A stretch of 64,000 bases of DNA from positions 2,504,196 to 2,568,195 of the forward strand of contig NZ_KE386572.1 of NCBI RefSeq assembly GCF_000427665.1, given 5' to 3'. The notes under the pieces were generated by a model. That model saw nothing but the letters and a program-made list of their open reading frames with translations. It had not been told where the DNA came from and made no database searches. Positions 1,101 to 7,669 of the stretch are shown here, piece by piece (position 1 is the first letter of the stretch; every line of letters starts with the position of its first letter). Source of the stretch: Geminicoccus roseus DSM 18922 (GTDB lineage: Bacteria > Pseudomonadota > Alphaproteobacteria > Geminicoccales > Geminicoccaceae). The position numbers and the translations under genes are program-made.

Positions 1101-1426
1101 TCGAGGCCGGGCTGGAGCCAGGACGGATCCTGCTGGCGATCCTGGCCGTGGCGGTCCTGCTGGGTCTGGTGCCCCTGGTGGTGCGCCGTTTCCGGCCCCG
1201 GGCCGTGCTGGGCCCGCAGGCGCCGCTGGAGGTGGTGGCGCAACGCGCGCTCGACCTGCGCCACCGCGTGCTGGTGATCCGCTATCGTGGCCGCGACCAT
1301 CTGCTGGTGCTGGGCGGCACGCTGCCGGTCGTCCTGGACGGCGGCGACCCGGCCAGTGCCCTGGCGCCGGGGCCCGACCGCAGAACCAGGGACGAACTGC
1401 TCCCCAGGCAAGGACAGCTCCCATGA
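1097..1426 (+). CDS. fliO: flagellar biosynthesis protein FliO
   Basis: 109-residue bitopic membrane protein that helps assemble the FliP ring of the flagellar type III export gate. One membrane segment lies near the N-terminus (about residues 9-27), followed by a basic cytoplasmic stretch and a small domain with the pattern LGPQAPLEVV...VLVIRYRGRDHLLVLGG (interrupted) typical of FliO. The start is set by the ATGA overlap with the upstream gene, and its own stop overlaps the fliP start in the same way (1423-1426). FliO is weakly conserved; assignment rests on topology, this motif region and direct linkage to fliP. Confidence 0.85.
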   Translation: MIEAGLEPGRILLAILAVAVLLGLVPLVVRRFRPRAVLGPQAPLEVVAQRALDLRHRVLVIRYRGRDHLLVLGGTLPVVLDGGDPASALAPGPDRRTRDELLPRQGQLP

Positions 1427-2160
1427 GGCCGGCGCGCATGACGCTGCTCGTCCTGGCGGTGGCCGGGATGCTGGCGCTTCCCCAGCCGGTCCAGGCCGAG
1501 GGCGGCATCTCCCTCGACCTTGGCGGTGGCTCCTACACCAGCCAGCTCGTCCAGATCGTGGCGCTGGTGACGGTGCTCAGCCTGGCGCCGGGCATCCTGG
1601 TGATGGTGACGTCGTTCACCCGGATCGTGATCGTGCTCTCGTTCCTGCGCAGCGCCTTGGGCCTGCAGCAGACGCCGCCGAACCCGGTCCTGATCGGCCT
1701 GGCCCTGTTCCTGACCGCGTTCGTGATGGGCCCGACCCTGCAGCGCGCCTACGAGGCGGGGATCGCGCCCTACATGGCCGAGCAGATGGACGAGGCGACC
1801 GCGTTCGAGCGGGCCAGCGGCCCGGTGCGCGAGTTCATGCTGGCCCATACCCGCGCCAAGGACCTCGACCTGTTCCTGGACCTGGCCGGGCTGCAGCCGG
1901 AAGCCGCCATGGACACGCCGCTGCGCACCCTGGTGCCTGCCTTCATGATCAGCGAGCTGCGGCGGGCGTTCGAGATCGGGTTCCTGATCTTCATCCCGTT
2001 CCTGGTGATCGACCTGCTGATCGCGTCGATCCTGATGTCGATGGGCATGATGATGCTGCCCCCGGTGATGATCTCCTTGCCGATCAAGCTGATCTTCTTC
2101 GTGCTGGTCGATGGCTGGTACCTGGTCGCCGGCAGCCTGGTGCAGAGCTTCCAGCCATGA
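1423..2160 (+). CDS. fliP: flagellar type III export gate protein FliP
   Basis: 245-residue inner-membrane protein of the FliPQR export-gate core. An N-terminal cleavable signal (ends near PVQAEG, about residue 25) is followed by four membrane segments. The signature MVTSFTRIVIVLSFLRSALG is present, as is QTPPNPVLIGLALFLT, and the C-terminal MMLPPVMISLPIKLIFFVLV block is intact. Length matches the family (about 245). It overlaps fliO by four bases. fliQ and fliR do not follow; the next gene is convergent, so the operon ends here within this window. Confidence 0.96.
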   Translation: MRPARMTLLVLAVAGMLALPQPVQAEGGISLDLGGGSYTSQLVQIVALVTVLSLAPGILVMVTSFTRIVIVLSFLRSALGLQQTPPNPVLIGLALFLTAFVMGPTLQRAYEAGIAPYMAEQMDEATAFERASGPVREFMLAHTRAKDLDLFLDLAGLQPEAAMDTPLRTLVPAFMISELRRAFEIGFLIFIPFLVIDLLIASILMSMGMMMLPPVMISLPIKLIFFVLVDGWYLVAGSLVQSFQP

Positions 2161-2186
2161 GCCTGCGACCTTCGCCGCCCGGAGGG

Positions 2187-2615
2187 TCAGCCGGTCTTCG
2201 GCCGGGCCAGCAGGACCCAGGCGACCAGGATCCAGCCGACGATCAGGCCGGTGCCGCCCACGGGCGTGATAGCGCCAAGCCAGCCCGGCCCGCCCAACGC
2301 CAGCAGCACCAGGGTGCCGGAGAACAGGACGCTGGCGGCGAGCAGCAGGAGCAGCGGCCGGTGCAGGCCGTCATGCTGCCGCCGCAGCGCCAGGACCGCC
2401 AGAGCGTGCCACATCAGGTACTGGCCGGCGGTCTCCATCAGGCCGGCGCCGCGCAGGTCGCCGGCGTCGCGGAACGCATGGGCGCCCATGGCCCCGATCA
2501 TCACGGCGAGGGCGGCGCCGATCGCGGCGCCCGCCTGCAGGAGCGGCCCGGCCCGGCCGGTCGTGCCGGGGCCGGACGGCCTGGCCGGGCGAGGGGGCTT
2601 CTGGGACCTGCGCAT
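2187..2615 (-). CDS. DUF423 family membrane protein
   Basis: 142-residue integral membrane protein of the DUF423/YgdD family. Four hydrophobic segments are visible (about 28-45, 66-80, 87-106 and 112-135). Family features present are GAMGAHAF, the YLMWHALAVL block and the late TPVGGTGLIVGWILVAW stretch. Function is unknown; homologues are small four-helix inner-membrane proteins. It is convergent with fliP and downstream of, but 174 bases from, the zinc-ribbon operon on the same strand, so may be transcribed alone. Confidence 0.9.
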   Translation of the reverse strand: MRRSQKPPRPARPSGPGTTGRAGPLLQAGAAIGAALAVMIGAMGAHAFRDAGDLRGAGLMETAGQYLMWHALAVLALRRQHDGLHRPLLLLLAASVLFSGTLVLLALGGPGWLGAITPVGGTGLIVGWILVAWVLLARPKTG

Positions 2616-2789
2616 CGGTTCGCTCCTCCGGGAGGCTGCTCCTCCGGGGCCGGCCGCCGCCAGGGCGGGCCCAGGCCCGGCCTCGCCGATACCCTCCGCA
2701 GGCGGCAGCGGCCATGGCGGACAGCCGGGGGCGCGACGTTTTGGCGGCAGGGCAGGCCGGCGCCAGGGGAGGGTCTGCCGGATCCCGGC

Positions 2790-4046
2790 TCAGCGCAGGC
2801 CGCGCAGCACCTGGTCGACCAGCCCGCCATCGCCGAGCAGCGCCATCACCAGGGCCAGGACCAGCACGCCGGCCAGCACGGCGGCCGACACCTTGACCCA
2901 CGACCAGGGCCGCTCGCCCTGGACCTGGCCGGTGCGGGCATTGACCATGAACCGGTAGGGTCTGGCCCGGTAGCGGTAGGCGGCCAGCCAGACCGGCAGC
3001 AGGACATGCTTGAAGGTGACGTCGTCGTGGCGGGTCTGGACCAGGTCGATCCGCTGGAGGTCGCCGCCGATCGCGCGGGCGACATCCTGGCGGATCACCA
3101 TGTCCATCTTCACCCTGGCCCGATCGAAGCCGGCGGCCAGGTCCAGCCCGTAGGCCTCGGCCCGGAACCCGGCCAGGTATTCGGGACGATAGAACCGCAG
3201 GTCCTGGAGGTCCCAGGGCTCCAGCCGGTCGACCATCGGGCCCGGCAGGCTCTCGGCGGCCGGCACCAGCACGTCGTCGAAGGCCCTTGCCACCTGACCC
3301 GCAGCCGGACTCCAGCGGATCCGGGTCACCGGCTGCTGCACCCGGCTGGTGCGGCCCTTCTGGTCGGTGACGGTGACCCATTCCATGGTGGTGTAGCGGT
3401 CGCCGCGCTGGCCGCGATAGCTCGAGCGGGTGGCGCTGTCATAGGTCCAGTAGGGCAGGTAGATGCCGGTCAGGCGCTGGCGCTTCTCGGTCCGGCGCTT
3501 CAGGTCGGAGGGCGCGAACCACAGGCCCCGCAGCCAGCGGTCGAACGCCGCCTCGGCGTCGCGCCGGTCGATGCCGAACGGCAGCAGGCCCGAGGGCCGG
3601 ATGTGCCGGTTGGTGCCGGTGTCGGTGACGGTGGCGGAGCCGCAGAACGGGCAGGATCCGCTAAAAACGCTGCCCTCGAAGCTGAACTCGGCGGCGCAGG
3701 CGTCGCACTTGACCGTGCGCGTCTCCTCGACGTCGCGCTGGTCCGCCAGCCGGCCGAGCCATTCATGGTAGTCCAGCTCGCGGAGCGTCCCCGGCGTCTC
3801 GACCTGCTCGATCCGGTTCTCGTGCCCGCAGAACCCGCAGACCAGCACCTGGGTGCCCGGCCGGAACGTCAGGAAGGCGCCGCACTGGGTGCAGGGAAAC
3901 CGGCGGTCGCCGGTGTCAGCGCCCGGCCGGTCCGGCGGCGCCGCTGCCGGGGATGGCACCGGTTCCCGCCATGGCGACGGCGCCGCGCCCGGCGCGCGCG
4001 GCCCGTCGGCGTCCGCGTCCGGACGCTCGCCCCAAGGTCCGGCCAT
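2790..4046 (-). CDS. zinc-ribbon membrane protein of the SPFH/TelA operon
   Basis: 418-residue protein. After a Pro/Ala-rich leader come two zinc ribbons, with Cys52/55/70/73 and Cys114/117/132/135. A large central domain follows with the conserved stretch LTGIYLPYWTYD, and one C-terminal membrane segment (about 384-404). Homologues are often mislabelled as PriA-like helicase or TFIIB zinc-finger proteins; no helicase motif is present. It is the last gene of a tight operon: only three bases separate it from the SPFH gene. It is likely membrane-anchored with ribbons in the cytoplasm, perhaps binding the SPFH partner. Function is unknown. Confidence 0.85.
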   Translation of the reverse strand: MAGPWGERPDADADGPRAPGAAPSPWREPVPSPAAAPPDRPGADTGDRRFPCTQCGAFLTFRPGTQVLVCGFCGHENRIEQVETPGTLRELDYHEWLGRLADQRDVEETRTVKCDACAAEFSFEGSVFSGSCPFCGSATVTDTGTNRHIRPSGLLPFGIDRRDAEAAFDRWLRGLWFAPSDLKRRTEKRQRLTGIYLPYWTYDSATRSSYRGQRGDRYTTMEWVTVTDQKGRTSRVQQPVTRIRWSPAAGQVARAFDDVLVPAAESLPGPMVDRLEPWDLQDLRFYRPEYLAGFRAEAYGLDLAAGFDRARVKMDMVIRQDVARAIGGDLQRIDLVQTRHDDVTFKHVLLPVWLAAYRYRARPYRFMVNARTGQVQGERPWSWVKVSAAVLAGVLVLALVMALLGDGGLVDQVLRGLR

Positions 4047-4049
4047 GCC

Positions 4050-5204
4050 TCAGTGGCCGGGCAGCGGCGGCGGCCGGTCGGCGAACAGTGGCGCCAGGTC
4101 CGGCTGGTCCCCGGCCCTGCCCCAGTCGGCCATGCCCGATTTCCAGACCATGCTGGCCCGGGTCAGCCGTCCGTCCCCCGCCAGGCCGTGCAGCCCGTCC
4201 AGATCGAACGGGCCCTGGGCCGTTCCGTCCATCGCCACATGGTAGCGCAGCGCCGCGGGCAAGGGCGGGGGCGTCCCGGCTGGGCCCGGGGCCGCCCCGG
4301 CGCCTGCGTCCCCGGCGTCCACGTTTCTGGCGCCCTGGCCGGGTCCGCCGGCCGAGCCGAAGGCGGAGGCCACCTGCTGGGCCATGGCCATGCCGGCGCC
4401 AAGGCCGATCCCGGCGCCCACCGCCCCGTCGCCGCCGCTTTGGCCAAGCGCCTCGGCAGCCTGGAAGCGGGTATAGCGGTCAAGATCGCCAATCACGCCC
4501 ATGGAGGTGCGCCGGTCGAGGGCCTGCTCGACCGCGGGAGGCAGCGAGACGTTCTCCACCAGGAGTTGGAGGAGGTCGATGCCGTAGGCCTCGCGCACCA
4601 TCGGCGCCGCCCGTTCGGTGACGAAGGTGCTAAGCTTGCGGTAGTTGGCGGCCAGGTCCAGGACCGGCACGCCACTGGTCGCCAGCGCCTCGCTCATCTT
4701 GGCGACGATCAGGTTGCGCAGCTGGTTGCTGATCTCGTCGGTGGTGAAGTGGCCGTCGGTGCCGACCACCTCGCGCAGGAACAAGGGCGCATCGGCGACC
4801 TTGATCGTGTAGGTGCCGAACGCGCGCAGCCGCACCGGGCCGAACTCCGGGTCCCGCAGCATGATCGGGTTCTTGGTGCCCCATTTCAGGTCGGTGAACC
4901 GGCGGGTCGAGACGAAGTAGATTTCGGCCTTGAACGGCGAGTTGAAGGCATGGTCCCAGTGCCGGATCGTGGTCAGCACCGGCAGGTTGCGGGTTTCCAG
5001 CTGGTAGAGGCCGGGCGGGAACACGTCGGCGATCTGGCCCTCGCTGACGAACACCGCCACCTGGCCCTCGCGCACCGTCAGCTTGGCACCCTGCTTGATC
5101 GCGTCCTGCCAGCGCTCGAACCGCCAGACCAGGGTGTCGGAGCTGTCGTCCTTCCACTCGACGACATCGACGAACTCGCCGGTGAGCCGTTCCCAGAGCG
5201 ACAT
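4050..5204 (-). CDS. SPFH-domain protein with C-terminal GYF_2 domain
   Basis: 384-residue virion-core/YdjI-type SPFH (band-7) protein. The SPFH domain covers about residues 30-235, with a short helical tail; then comes a Gly/Ala/Pro linker (about 255-320) and a GYF_2 domain (about 325-375; YHVAMDGTAQGPFDL, MVWKSGMADW). There is no membrane segment, so it is probably a peripheral scaffold that oligomerises on the inner membrane. GYF_2 domains bind proline-rich peptides, and both operon partners TelA and the zinc-ribbon protein carry Pro-rich N-termini. It sits three bases from both neighbours. In Bacillus, YdjI-type SPFH proteins act in membrane stress; the role here is inferred. Confidence 0.88.
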   Translation of the reverse strand: MSLWERLTGEFVDVVEWKDDSSDTLVWRFERWQDAIKQGAKLTVREGQVAVFVSEGQIADVFPPGLYQLETRNLPVLTTIRHWDHAFNSPFKAEIYFVSTRRFTDLKWGTKNPIMLRDPEFGPVRLRAFGTYTIKVADAPLFLREVVGTDGHFTTDEISNQLRNLIVAKMSEALATSGVPVLDLAANYRKLSTFVTERAAPMVREAYGIDLLQLLVENVSLPPAVEQALDRRTSMGVIGDLDRYTRFQAAEALGQSGGDGAVGAGIGLGAGMAMAQQVASAFGSAGGPGQGARNVDAGDAGAGAAPGPAGTPPPLPAALRYHVAMDGTAQGPFDLDGLHGLAGDGRLTRASMVWKSGMADWGRAGDQPDLAPLFADRPPPLPGH

Positions 5205-5207
5205 CGG

Positions 5208-6497
5208 TCAGACCCTGCCGCCGGGCCGCCCCGGCGCCGGGGCGCCGCGCGCCGCCGAGGCCGCACGCAGCACCTGCTTCAGCTCGGTCTCGCAGGTGAC
5301 CAGGCGCTTCTCGGCGTCGGCCCGCTTGACCTTGCCCTCGTCGGCGATGCGCAGGCTGTCCTGGATCGTGTCGATCAGCGCCCGGTTGGCCCGCTCCACC
5401 ACCGAGATGTCGAACACGCCCCGCTCGATCTGCTCGCGCACCATCGCGTTGGCGTCCTTCAGGTTCTTGGCGTTCGCCTCCAGGAGCTGGTTGGTCAGGT
5501 CGGTCGCCTCCTTGAGGGTCTTGGCCGCCTCGCTGGAGCGGTAGATCGTGATCGCCTGGGCGAGCTGGGTCTTCCAGAGCGGGATGGTGTTGGCCAGCGT
5601 GCTGGTGATCTTGTTGATCAGCCCCTTGTCGTTCTCCTGCACCAGGCGGATCGAGGGCAGGGCCTGCATGGTGACCTGCCGGGTGAGCTTCAGGTCGTGG
5701 ACGCGCCGCTCCAGATCGTCCCGGGCGGCGCGCAGGTCGCGCAGGCGCTGGGCGGTCAGCACCTCGCCGGTCTCCTCCGCGGCCCTGGCCAGGGCCGGGA
5801 TCTGCTCGTGGTCGAGCTTGCGCAGCATCTCCTCGCCGGCGGCGATGTAGAGCGCCAGCTGGTGGAAATAGGAGAGGGTCGCCTCGTAGAGCCGGTCCAG
5901 CTTCTCCACGTCGATCATCAACGTGTTCTTGTGCTTGTTCAGGCTGTCGCCGATCGTCTCGATCTGGCCGCGGACCTCCTGGTACTTCTGCACGAATTTG
6001 TGGATCGGCTCGGTGGCGCCGAACAGCCGGCTGAGCCAGGACGGCTTCCTGCCTTCCTTCAGGTCGCCGGTGTCAAAGCCCTTCAAAGTCAGCAGCATGC
6101 GCGACAGGGCGTCGCCGGCCGGGCCGGCATCCTTGTTGCGCACCCCTTCCAGCATCTGCTCGCTGATGTTGGTGAGTTCGCCCTGGGCCCGCGCGCCGAA
6201 CAGCACCACCGAGTTGCTGTCGCCCAGGTCGATCTCGGCCAGAAGCTGCTCGACCTCAGCCAGTTGCTCCGGCGCCAGTTCCGAGGACTGGGCGATCTCG
6301 GCGCTGGTGGCGGTCAGGCCGGCCGATGTGCTGGCCGTCTGCCGGACCGGCGGCGGCGCCGCCCCGATCGGCTGCGGCACCGCCTCGAGCGGCTGCGGCT
6401 TTGCGTCGACCGGCTGCGCCTCGCGGGCGGGCGTTGGCGCGGCCGGCTGGTTCCAGGGCTGCAGCGAAGGCGAGGAGGTCCTGGTCTGCTCGTTCAT
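5208..6497 (-). CDS. TelA/KlaA toxic-anion resistance family protein
   Basis: 429-residue cytoplasmic, mostly helical protein of the TelA family (named for tellurite resistance; YaaN in Bacillus). The first 55 residues are Pro/Ala-rich; the rest is long amphipathic helix containing the family stretches SWLSRLFGATEPIHKFVQKY, TLMIDVEKLDRLYEATLSYF and LVQENDKGLINKITSTL. Family length is typically 350-430. It lies three bases upstream of the SPFH gene and 184 bases downstream of xpaC. The biochemical function of TelA proteins is unresolved; they recur beside XpaC and SPFH proteins in stress-response clusters. Confidence 0.92.
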   Translation of the reverse strand: MNEQTRTSSPSLQPWNQPAAPTPAREAQPVDAKPQPLEAVPQPIGAAPPPVRQTASTSAGLTATSAEIAQSSELAPEQLAEVEQLLAEIDLGDSNSVVLFGARAQGELTNISEQMLEGVRNKDAGPAGDALSRMLLTLKGFDTGDLKEGRKPSWLSRLFGATEPIHKFVQKYQEVRGQIETIGDSLNKHKNTLMIDVEKLDRLYEATLSYFHQLALYIAAGEEMLRKLDHEQIPALARAAEETGEVLTAQRLRDLRAARDDLERRVHDLKLTRQVTMQALPSIRLVQENDKGLINKITSTLANTIPLWKTQLAQAITIYRSSEAAKTLKEATDLTNQLLEANAKNLKDANAMVREQIERGVFDISVVERANRALIDTIQDSLRIADEGKVKRADAEKRLVTCETELKQVLRAASAARGAPAPGRPGGRV

Positions 6498-6681
6498 CGG
6501 GCGCTTGTTCCTCGGCGAAAATCTCGGATGGTCTGGGCGTCGGCGACGGCCGGCCGACGGGGGCAGGGACGGGCCGGTCCTGCCGTTCCGGGGAGCGCGG
6601 CGCCGGCGGCCTGCCGGCTCGTCCTGCCCGCTCCGGGCCGCCCTGGTCCGGATTGCCCGGGGCCGGGTCTGGCCTCGATGA

Positions 6682-7584
6682 TCAATGCAGGCCCTCGCTC
6701 TTCAGCCGGCGGGTCAGCACCTCCAGCTGGACGTCCAGGTCCAGCGCATCGGCGGCAAGCAGCTTTTGCTGCTGTTCCGCCATGACGGTCTCCATGGCGT
6801 CCAGCGCTTCGGTGAACTTGCGCTCGATGGCCGGATCGGCGCCGCCATCCAGGCCGGATCCGGCGAACTTGCGGGCGATCGTCAGCGTCTCGTCGAGATA
6901 CAGGTTCAGCATCTTGCGCGCGCGGTTGAAGGTGTCGGGCTGCCGCTCGATGGTCTCGACCAGTCCCTGCGCGCGGCCGACCACCAGGCCCAGGCGCTGG
7001 GCCAGCGCCCGCGAGGCGATCCGCCGCCGGATCTGGTCCAGTTCGGCGATCCGCGCCGCCGCGGCGTCGAGCGCGGTGCGGAACATGTCGGTGTCGATGC
7101 CGGTATGGTCGGCCGCCCGCTTCTCGCCGCGCGGATCCAGCCCGTACATGAGCAGGCCGCCGACCGTGGCGCCGATGCCGAACGCCAGGCCCGACATGAA
7201 GCTGTGGCCGGCCCCGGCGAAGGCCAGCAGGAAGGCGGCGGCACCCAGGCAGGCTGCCCCGATCGCCTTACGCGGCAGGCCGGGCGCCCGGGCGACGCTG
7301 CGCGCGCGGAACGCCCGCTCGGCGCGCCGGCCGGCTCGGATCGAGGCGGAGGCGCCGATCACCAGGGCGGCGGCGACCACGTCCAGCAGGACCGCCTCGG
7401 TGCGGCCGCGCCCAAGGGCGATGAAGGCAGCGAGGATCGGCACCAGCGCGAACAGGTTGAGGATCAGGCCCTCGAACCGCCCCTCCAGGCGCGAGCGCAT
7501 CTCCGGCACCCAGCGCTGCGGCGGCGGCCGCCCGCCCAGGATCGCCTGGTCCGGACGAGTCCCGGCCGTACGGTCAGAATGCAT
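6682..7584 (-). CDS. XpaC-like 5-bromo-4-chloroindolyl phosphate hydrolysis family protein
   Basis: 300-residue membrane protein. Four hydrophobic segments lie at about 40-58, 64-82, 107-125 and 129-149, followed by a helical cytoplasmic domain (155-300) matching the XpaC family by its alpha-helical pattern and the end motif region LEVLTRRLKSEG. Despite the family name, no phosphatase motif is visible. The gene leads the telA-SPFH-zinc ribbon series on the same strand. The pairing XpaC+TelA is the same as yaaN/xpaC in Bacillus. The start at 7584 overlaps a possible 31-codon membrane ORF. Confidence 0.82.
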   Translation of the reverse strand: MHSDRTAGTRPDQAILGGRPPPQRWVPEMRSRLEGRFEGLILNLFALVPILAAFIALGRGRTEAVLLDVVAAALVIGASASIRAGRRAERAFRARSVARAPGLPRKAIGAACLGAAAFLLAFAGAGHSFMSGLAFGIGATVGGLLMYGLDPRGEKRAADHTGIDTDMFRTALDAAAARIAELDQIRRRIASRALAQRLGLVVGRAQGLVETIERQPDTFNRARKMLNLYLDETLTIARKFAGSGLDGGADPAIERKFTEALDAMETVMAEQQQKLLAADALDLDVQLEVLTRRLKSEGLH

Positions 7585-7669
7585 GGACGAACAATGCCTG
7601 ACAGCTGGCCACCCCCAACGTGGCGACCAGCAGCATGAAGCCGCCGACCTTGCGCAAGACCATGTTCAT
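7574..7669 (-). CDS. possible 31-residue membrane peptide upstream of xpaC
   Basis: Short ORF starting at ATG 7669 with a GGAGGG-like sequence about 13 bases upstream, and overlapping the xpaC start by 11 bases. The peptide has a single hydrophobic segment (GGFMLLVATLGVA) with basic residues before it and a Cys after it. The overlap suggests translational coupling, and small membrane peptides are often missed, but composition alone could produce this. It is listed as a candidate only. Confidence 0.3.
   Translation of the reverse strand: MNMVLRKVGGFMLLVATLGVASCQALFVHAF

Follow-up and report, generated by a model that had tools for sequence, protein, structure and literature searches.

A conserved operon joining a micropeptide, XpaC, TelA, an SPFH-GYF protein and a zinc-ribbon protein as a candidate envelope-stress scaffold

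Within a 64,000-nucleotide stretch of Geminicoccus roseus DSM 18922 (contig NZ_KE386572.1, hereafter the window), we analysed an operon in which a gene for a micropeptide is followed by genes for XpaC, TelA, an SPFH protein ending in a GYF domain (SPFH-GYF) and a membrane protein with zinc ribbons (ZnR) (Table 1). These genes recur in this fixed order across Alphaproteobacteria and some Gammaproteobacteria. We infer, at roughly even chances, that the operon encodes an inner-membrane scaffold that responds to envelope stress independently of PspA.

Results

The gene order is conserved across Alphaproteobacteria and some Gammaproteobacteria

Of the 31 genomes that represent the window's order, 20 carry TelA, including the window's own. 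Among the other 19 (loci L021 to L039), all four larger genes occur in the same order in 17, two of which (L024 and L028) have a partial XpaC at the contig edge, and the remaining two (L037 and L039) are truncated at contig boundaries. In genome G018, a second, weaker TelA (L040) stands without any of the partners. In L035, 1.4 kb separate telA from the SPFH gene, and the product of the insert between 5667 and 7097 looks by eye like an OmpA-type outer membrane protein.

In a wider sample of 240 genomes of the class, taken to be Alphaproteobacteria, ZnR was matched at E ≤ 0.001 in 13, strongly in ten and by short, weak matches (E 5e-4 to 8e-4) in three. All ten genomes with strong ZnR have a strong Band_7_1 match no more than about 1.3 kb away on the ZnR contig, and eight of them have TelA and XpaC upstream, the exceptions being G177 and G260. 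Twenty-two of the 240 genomes have TelA, in 20 cases above the cut-off, and 15 have XpaC; both therefore also occur outside this operon. One class genome holds a second XpaC-TelA locus (G094:C289:1411-2385) with a TAG inside telA.

A ZnR profile scan of named genomes yielded at least 592 relatives, and the 80 most similar to the window's ZnR were analysed. These best 80 are mostly from Rhodobacteraceae, with others from Granulosicoccus, Methylococcales, Competibacteraceae, Kangiellaceae, Bacteroidetes, Planctomycetes and a Geobacter bin. Fifty-five of them have at least 6.5 kb upstream (the stretch is shorter in the remaining 25), and here we found SPFH, TelA and XpaC together in 47, SPFH and TelA in one, SPFH only in five and none of the three in two. 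The plain four-gene order is seen in the gammaproteobacterial loci L052, L076, L082, L091 and L116. Of the 52 named-genome loci having both TelA and SPFH, 40 have a DUF2927 gene, likely an extra component, between the two (e.g. L041, 7420-8349). A preliminary description of the window DNA had named co-occurrence confined to close relatives as the first of several findings that would refute its proposal; because the gene order occurs in both Alpha- and Gammaproteobacteria, and in eight of the ten strong-ZnR class genomes, that objection falls away.

Two further arrangements were seen around these loci. A second, weaker match to the XpaC profile lies just upstream of the operon xpaC in L046 (3928-4768), L086 (3071-4175) and L104 (4525-5587), and in the Geobacter bin a gene for a caspase-like peptidase (PF00656) directly precedes the ZnR relative (L050, 2436-4422).

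Composition of the operon

Pfam assigned XpaC to PF10112 (E 2.4e-22), TelA to PF05816 (E 1e-105) and the SPFH protein to Band_7_1 (PF13421, E 6.1e-98), with GYF_2 (PF14237, E 2.2e-14) at residues 321-370 of the latter, while no Pfam family scored above its cut-off for ZnR. The PF10112 gene stands beside the PF05816 gene in the window, and the intergenic gaps are 184 bp for xpaC-telA and 3 bp each for telA-SPFH and SPFH-ZnR. Eight cysteines of ZnR are arranged as four CxxC pairs, and a simple hydropathy scan called a single C-terminal hydrophobic segment in this protein (residues 386-404) and none in the SPFH protein. These results agree with the preliminary description as to the four co-directional genes, the three-base gaps, the GYF_2 end of the SPFH protein and the cysteines and C-terminal segment of ZnR. 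Its four membrane segments of XpaC were recovered in part: the scan, which merges neighbours, called three (39-57, 64-82 and 107-125), and a fourth is possible.

Table 1. Genes of the operon in the window
Gene	Position	Strand	Product
micropeptide gene	7574..7669	-	31 aa; one hydrophobic segment; 11-nt overlap with xpaC start
xpaC	6682..7584	-	300 aa; N-terminal hydrophobic segments; PF10112 at residues 113-290
telA	5208..6497	-	429 aa; PF05816 at residues 82-410
SPFH (Band_7_1) gene	4050..5204	-	384 aa; C-terminal GYF_2 and PPPLPG tail
ZnR gene	2790..4046	-	418 aa; two zinc ribbons; C-terminal transmembrane segment; YdjG-like; N-terminal GPWG motif

Comparison with PDB sequences returned nothing for XpaC at E ≤ 0.1, a best E of 0.038 for the TelA profile (cytochrome b562, taken as chance), only weak zinc-ribbon matches for ZnR (best E 0.0069) and, for the SPFH protein, a match of the GYF part alone to AgmX/GltJ (1.8e-10). 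The predicted ZnR model (pLDDT 79.3) contains strands of 30-35 residues. Foldseek found nothing in the PDB for this model at E ≤ 0.001, with pore-toxin rows at TM about 0.1, and the best VIA-align hit (Z 2.7 over 74 residues, rmsd 4.0) supports no fold claim.

A DUF423 gene lies downstream of the operon (2615-2187). We left it out of the system because only one of the fetched loci of the order, that of a same-genus genome, has a relative of it next to the operon. Opposite telA, SPFH and ZnR runs an antisense open frame of 1832 aa (1287-6785, +), which by eye is a high-GC artefact and no gene.

A membrane micropeptide precedes xpaC

In nearly every locus, a short open reading frame (ORF) with one hydrophobic segment lies directly upstream of xpaC. 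With fixed filters, which were set after a first look at the upstream ORFs and then applied unchanged to shuffles and to the other three genes, a peptide with one transmembrane (TM) segment was found before xpaC in 62 of 67 loci, compared to 0.6 for dinucleotide shuffles, 0/70 before telA, 0/80 before SPFH and 8/94 before ZnR. The ORFs before ZnR (6 when the count was repeated with slightly different filters) are of mixed sequence, and some look like ends of other genes. Four of the five misses before xpaC (L021, L052, L058 and L076) have a peptide just outside the filters, and L030 is without any.

Across 68 peptides (the 62 filtered ones and those of the window, L021, L052, L058, L076 and L151), length ranges from 22 to 52 aa with a median of 28. 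Substitutions by codon position number 113/48/237, with pS 0.52, pN 0.136 and pN/pS about 0.26 in 20 independent pairs, taken greedily from peptides that match in length and have a nucleotide identity of 60% or more. Selection acts on the amino acids of the micropeptide, which evolves like a protein-coding gene. Moreover, a profile made from the named-genome peptides, with the window's order excluded, put the window ORF at the top of 3169 ORFs (E 5.2e-6), and a single Granulosicoccus peptide used as query also placed it first (E 4.5e-6). Lower matches of the profile were in some cases xpaC-upstream ORFs (L031, L022) and in others not (L035, L023), most peptides of the window's order being too divergent for it to find. 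By sequence comparison, the micropeptides of the window, L022 and L031 are thus homologous to the gammaproteobacterial and Rhodobacteraceae set; in the rest of the window's order, identity rests on position and character. On the basis of the filtered counts against shuffles, the pN/pS ratio and the profile ranking, the 31-aa ORF of the window is more than chance, and what the preliminary description had offered as a possible membrane peptide at the xpaC start is very probably a real, conserved gene, and as such would be a component missed by annotation.

Lysine or arginine predominates on the N side of the hydrophobic segment in 58 of the 68 peptides, on the C side in 4 and on neither in 6, which points to an N-in orientation. 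Pfam and NCBIfam gave no match over a cut-off for the five micropeptides tried. We also considered a lipoprotein, on account of V-A-S-C in the window peptide (LPAM_1 E 0.021, below its cut-off), and rejected it as a general reading because only 17 of the 68 peptides contain cysteine.

To gauge specificity, we used 17 stretches with XpaC genes chosen regardless of ZnR (L166 and L167, below score, were left unscanned, and L152 is cut). The peptide was present in five of seven genes in XpaC-TelA or full-operon context with upstream room (L151, L153, L154, L158 and L164; none in L156 and L160) and in 0/7 of the scanned XpaC genes in other contexts. Listeria and Enterococcus fragments (L168 and L169, see below) have no peptide directly before xpaC; a 42-aa hydrophobic ORF that ends about 140 nt upstream of xpaC in L168 was not taken as related.

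It is conceivable, if unlikely, that the short ORF is instead a regulatory leader whose translation controls xpaC via coupling or ribosome stalling, the peptide itself having no membrane job. In favour of a leader, the ORF lies directly before xpaC, with an ATGA overlap between its stop and the xpaC start codon in 27 of 62 loci, and leader peptides may conserve amino acids as well. The selection on amino acids argues against it, as do the kept hydrophobic segment and the N-side charge, both as for a membrane helix; moreover, at a median of 28 aa the peptide would barely leave the ribosome tunnel.

The GYF domain co-occurs with a proline tail on the SPFH protein itself

The preliminary description had noted proline-rich N-termini on TelA and ZnR, which are real in the window genome, and had suggested that GYF docks on them directly. 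In this scheme GYF would bind GPWG or PP motifs of both tails and so assemble the complex. Besides the proline-rich tails of the window, the GPWG found near the ZnR N-terminus in most sequences of the window's order speaks for such docking. Across the sample, however, PP occurs in 32 of 84 ZnR and 16 of 64 TelA N-tails, and the ZnR N-tail is 15 aa or shorter in 30/84 and carries GPWG in 15/84, with GYF nonetheless kept (start codons are approximate in all these counts). As a conserved mechanism, partner docking is thus unsupported by tail composition beyond part of the sample, and we regard it as distinctly unlikely; the GPWG of ZnR may still serve a docking limited to some lineages.

By contrast with these patchy partner motifs, PPP occurs in the last 16 residues of all 97 GYF-bearing proteins among the 99 SPFH proteins scored, and therefore the conserved candidate ligand of GYF is the SPFH tail itself. 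The two SPFH proteins without GYF (Comamonas and Enterococcus) have no PPP in the last 12 residues, and P378, P379, P380 and P382 are invariant in the alignment of the order. GYF may accordingly clasp its own PPP tail, a point that the predicted SPFH model (pLDDT 68.5) does not settle. The C-terminal end varies beyond this set: it is zinc-finger-like in Enterococcus (by eye), helix-turn-helix in Comamonas (by annotation) and GYF in the others scored.

SPFH and ZnR form a core pair that mostly occurs without PspA

SPFH-ZnR is the core pair and also occurs in other phyla without XpaC-TelA. In plasmid records of Vibrio, Comamonas, Tsukamurella and Enterococcus, SPFH is followed by ZnR, and no TelA or XpaC was found in the stretch. 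The Enterococcus order is SPFH-ZnR-TPM, and its ZnR is matched by tblastn at E 1e-17; the window's SPFH and ZnR proteins are relatives of this trio, which probably corresponds to YdjI-YdjG-YdjH of Bacillus subtilis, YdjH being a TPM protein. The idea of a conserved module at the membrane, akin to the SPFH systems of YdjI type, is supported. On the Vibrio coralliilyticus plasmid (L123, 1605-9041), only a few genes separate SPFH-ZnR from genes with TIR and TRAFs-binding domains, which may indicate a conflict context, and on the Comamonas plasmid (L124, 6591-7691) the SPFH protein that adjoins ZnR is annotated with a helix-turn-helix and has no GYF.

PspA/IM30 (PF04012) had no match in the window genome (G000, 99% complete). 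Among the order's 20 TelA genomes, two (G002 and G018) have PspA over the cut-off, as do two of the ten strong-ZnR class genomes (G183 and G260), compared to 35/240 of the class sample; eight of these ten thus carry the pair without a PspA match over the cut-off. A Pfam search for TPM, which covered the four operon proteins and DUF423 and not the rest of the genome, gave no match.

XpaC-TelA pairs and envelope stress

Two Firmicute studies link the XpaC-TelA pair to envelope stress. In Lactococcus lactis, a study of CesSR and membrane-protein overproduction gives expression ratios of 10.3 for the XpaC-like llmg_1115 and 3.44 for telA1 (PMC3139573). In Listeria, lmo1966-1967 (XpaC/TelA) is described as a putative operon, and susceptibility of the lmo1967 mutant reportedly rose 4-fold to nisin and 2-fold to tellurite (PMC12791056).

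The tellurite phenotype bears on another reading, in which the operon confers resistance to tellurite or toxic anions or acts against phages; we consider this highly improbable. The name of TelA and the membership of KlaB of tellurium-resistance plasmids in its family would suit resistance, and in kla-type tellurite resistance KlaA and KlaC partner KlaB; the Vibrio SPFH-ZnR near TIR and TRAFs-binding genes and a phage with flotillin, XpaC and TelA (below) would suit phage conflict. Yet the nisin effect in Listeria exceeds the tellurite effect, PADLOC-DB 2.0.0 gave 0 families for the four operon proteins at E ≤ 0.01, and neither of the window neighbours read, DUF423 and a HAD hydrolase, is a defence gene, neighbours not having been tested systematically for such genes.

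The phage in question, Sinorhizobium phage Phosso (L170, 469 kb), encodes a flotillin (PF15975, Band_7), XpaC (PF10112) and TelA in a row (355207-362166), which constitutes an independent SPFH-XpaC-TelA linkage. A tblastn search of 50,697 phage records with the Phosso XpaC matched Phosso alone at E 1e-5. L168 and L169 are unverified records labelled Listeria and Enterococcus phage, with unannotated XpaC-TelA, that look like bacterial chromosome fragments.

Discussion

An envelope-stress scaffold could work as follows. Soluble SPFH-GYF would assemble into a ring or cage like its solved SPFH relatives, and membrane-anchored ZnR would tether it, much as YdjG and YdjH hold YdjI. GYF of an SPFH subunit would clasp its own or its neighbour's PPP tail, a concrete hypothesis for the control of SPFH assembly. 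XpaC would provide a second membrane platform, joined by the micropeptide as a small membrane subunit via coupled translation, and would recruit TelA. When cationic peptides, alkaline conditions or cell-wall stress act on the cell, the whole assembly might then shield or remodel the membrane or direct the synthesis of the wall. As a tentative and rather doubtful extension, the micropeptide could be a dedicated small XpaC subunit of this operon type, a membrane-stress sensor or gate from a new, unmodelled regulatory family that, without PspA, switches the SPFH-GYF cage between an open state and a closed one in which GYF sits on the PPP tail.

Several points weigh against this scaffold. We know of no phenotype for the joined operon. 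The SPFH model is mediocre and describes a single protein without a complex, recruitment of TelA by XpaC is a guess from gene adjacency, and the link to YdjG runs through the Enterococcus ZnR. In addition, TelA and XpaC are both absent from G177 and G260 and from 7/55 of the wider loci, and therefore the two halves can work apart. Our literature search returned no paper joining TelA, XpaC and SPFH, nor toxic anion resistance with SPFH, and none on PspA, SPFH, Toastrack and GYF together; TelA and XpaC appear jointly in 19 papers, and a single paper, on a different subject, combines three of SPFH, GYF, zinc ribbon and TelA. Searches on GltJ and GYF were empty, and none was aimed at the micropeptide.

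Comparison with known systems

With the SPFH cages (stomatin, HflK/C, flotillin, prohibitin), the operon shares the SPFH part, whose model resembles stomatin, HflK/C and flotillin in Foldseek (E down to 4.7e-9). Flotillins have long C-terminal parts, whereas the window protein has GYF and the PPP tail instead and no TM segment called.

A further close parallel is PspA-YdjGHI of B. subtilis. The pspA-ydjGHI operon encodes a zinc-ribbon membrane protein (YdjG) and a band 7 protein (YdjI) (PMC9239133). YdjI, which is predicted to be soluble and bears a zinc-finger motif close to the C-terminal end, depends on YdjG and YdjH to form membrane foci, as does PspA (PMC8581546). Both systems thus combine a soluble band-7 SPFH protein with a zinc-ribbon membrane protein, that of the window being a possible homologue of YdjG by way of the Enterococcus ZnR. 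They differ in that the window genome has no PspA match and its four operon proteins no TPM match, in that the window SPFH ends in GYF and a PPP tail rather than a zinc finger, and in that the window operon adds XpaC, TelA and the micropeptide.

The Firmicute pairs (L. lactis llmg_1115-1116 and L. monocytogenes lmo1966-1967) share XpaC beside TelA and a published link to envelope stress (PMC3139573, PMC12791056). The XpaC of fragments L168 and L169 (220 and 226 aa) is shorter than that of the window, and unlike the window operon these fragments carry neither SPFH-ZnR nor a peptide directly before xpaC. Two known envelope-stress modules, studied apart in Firmicutes, are one operon in many Proteobacteria, together with a conserved, unmodelled micropeptide.

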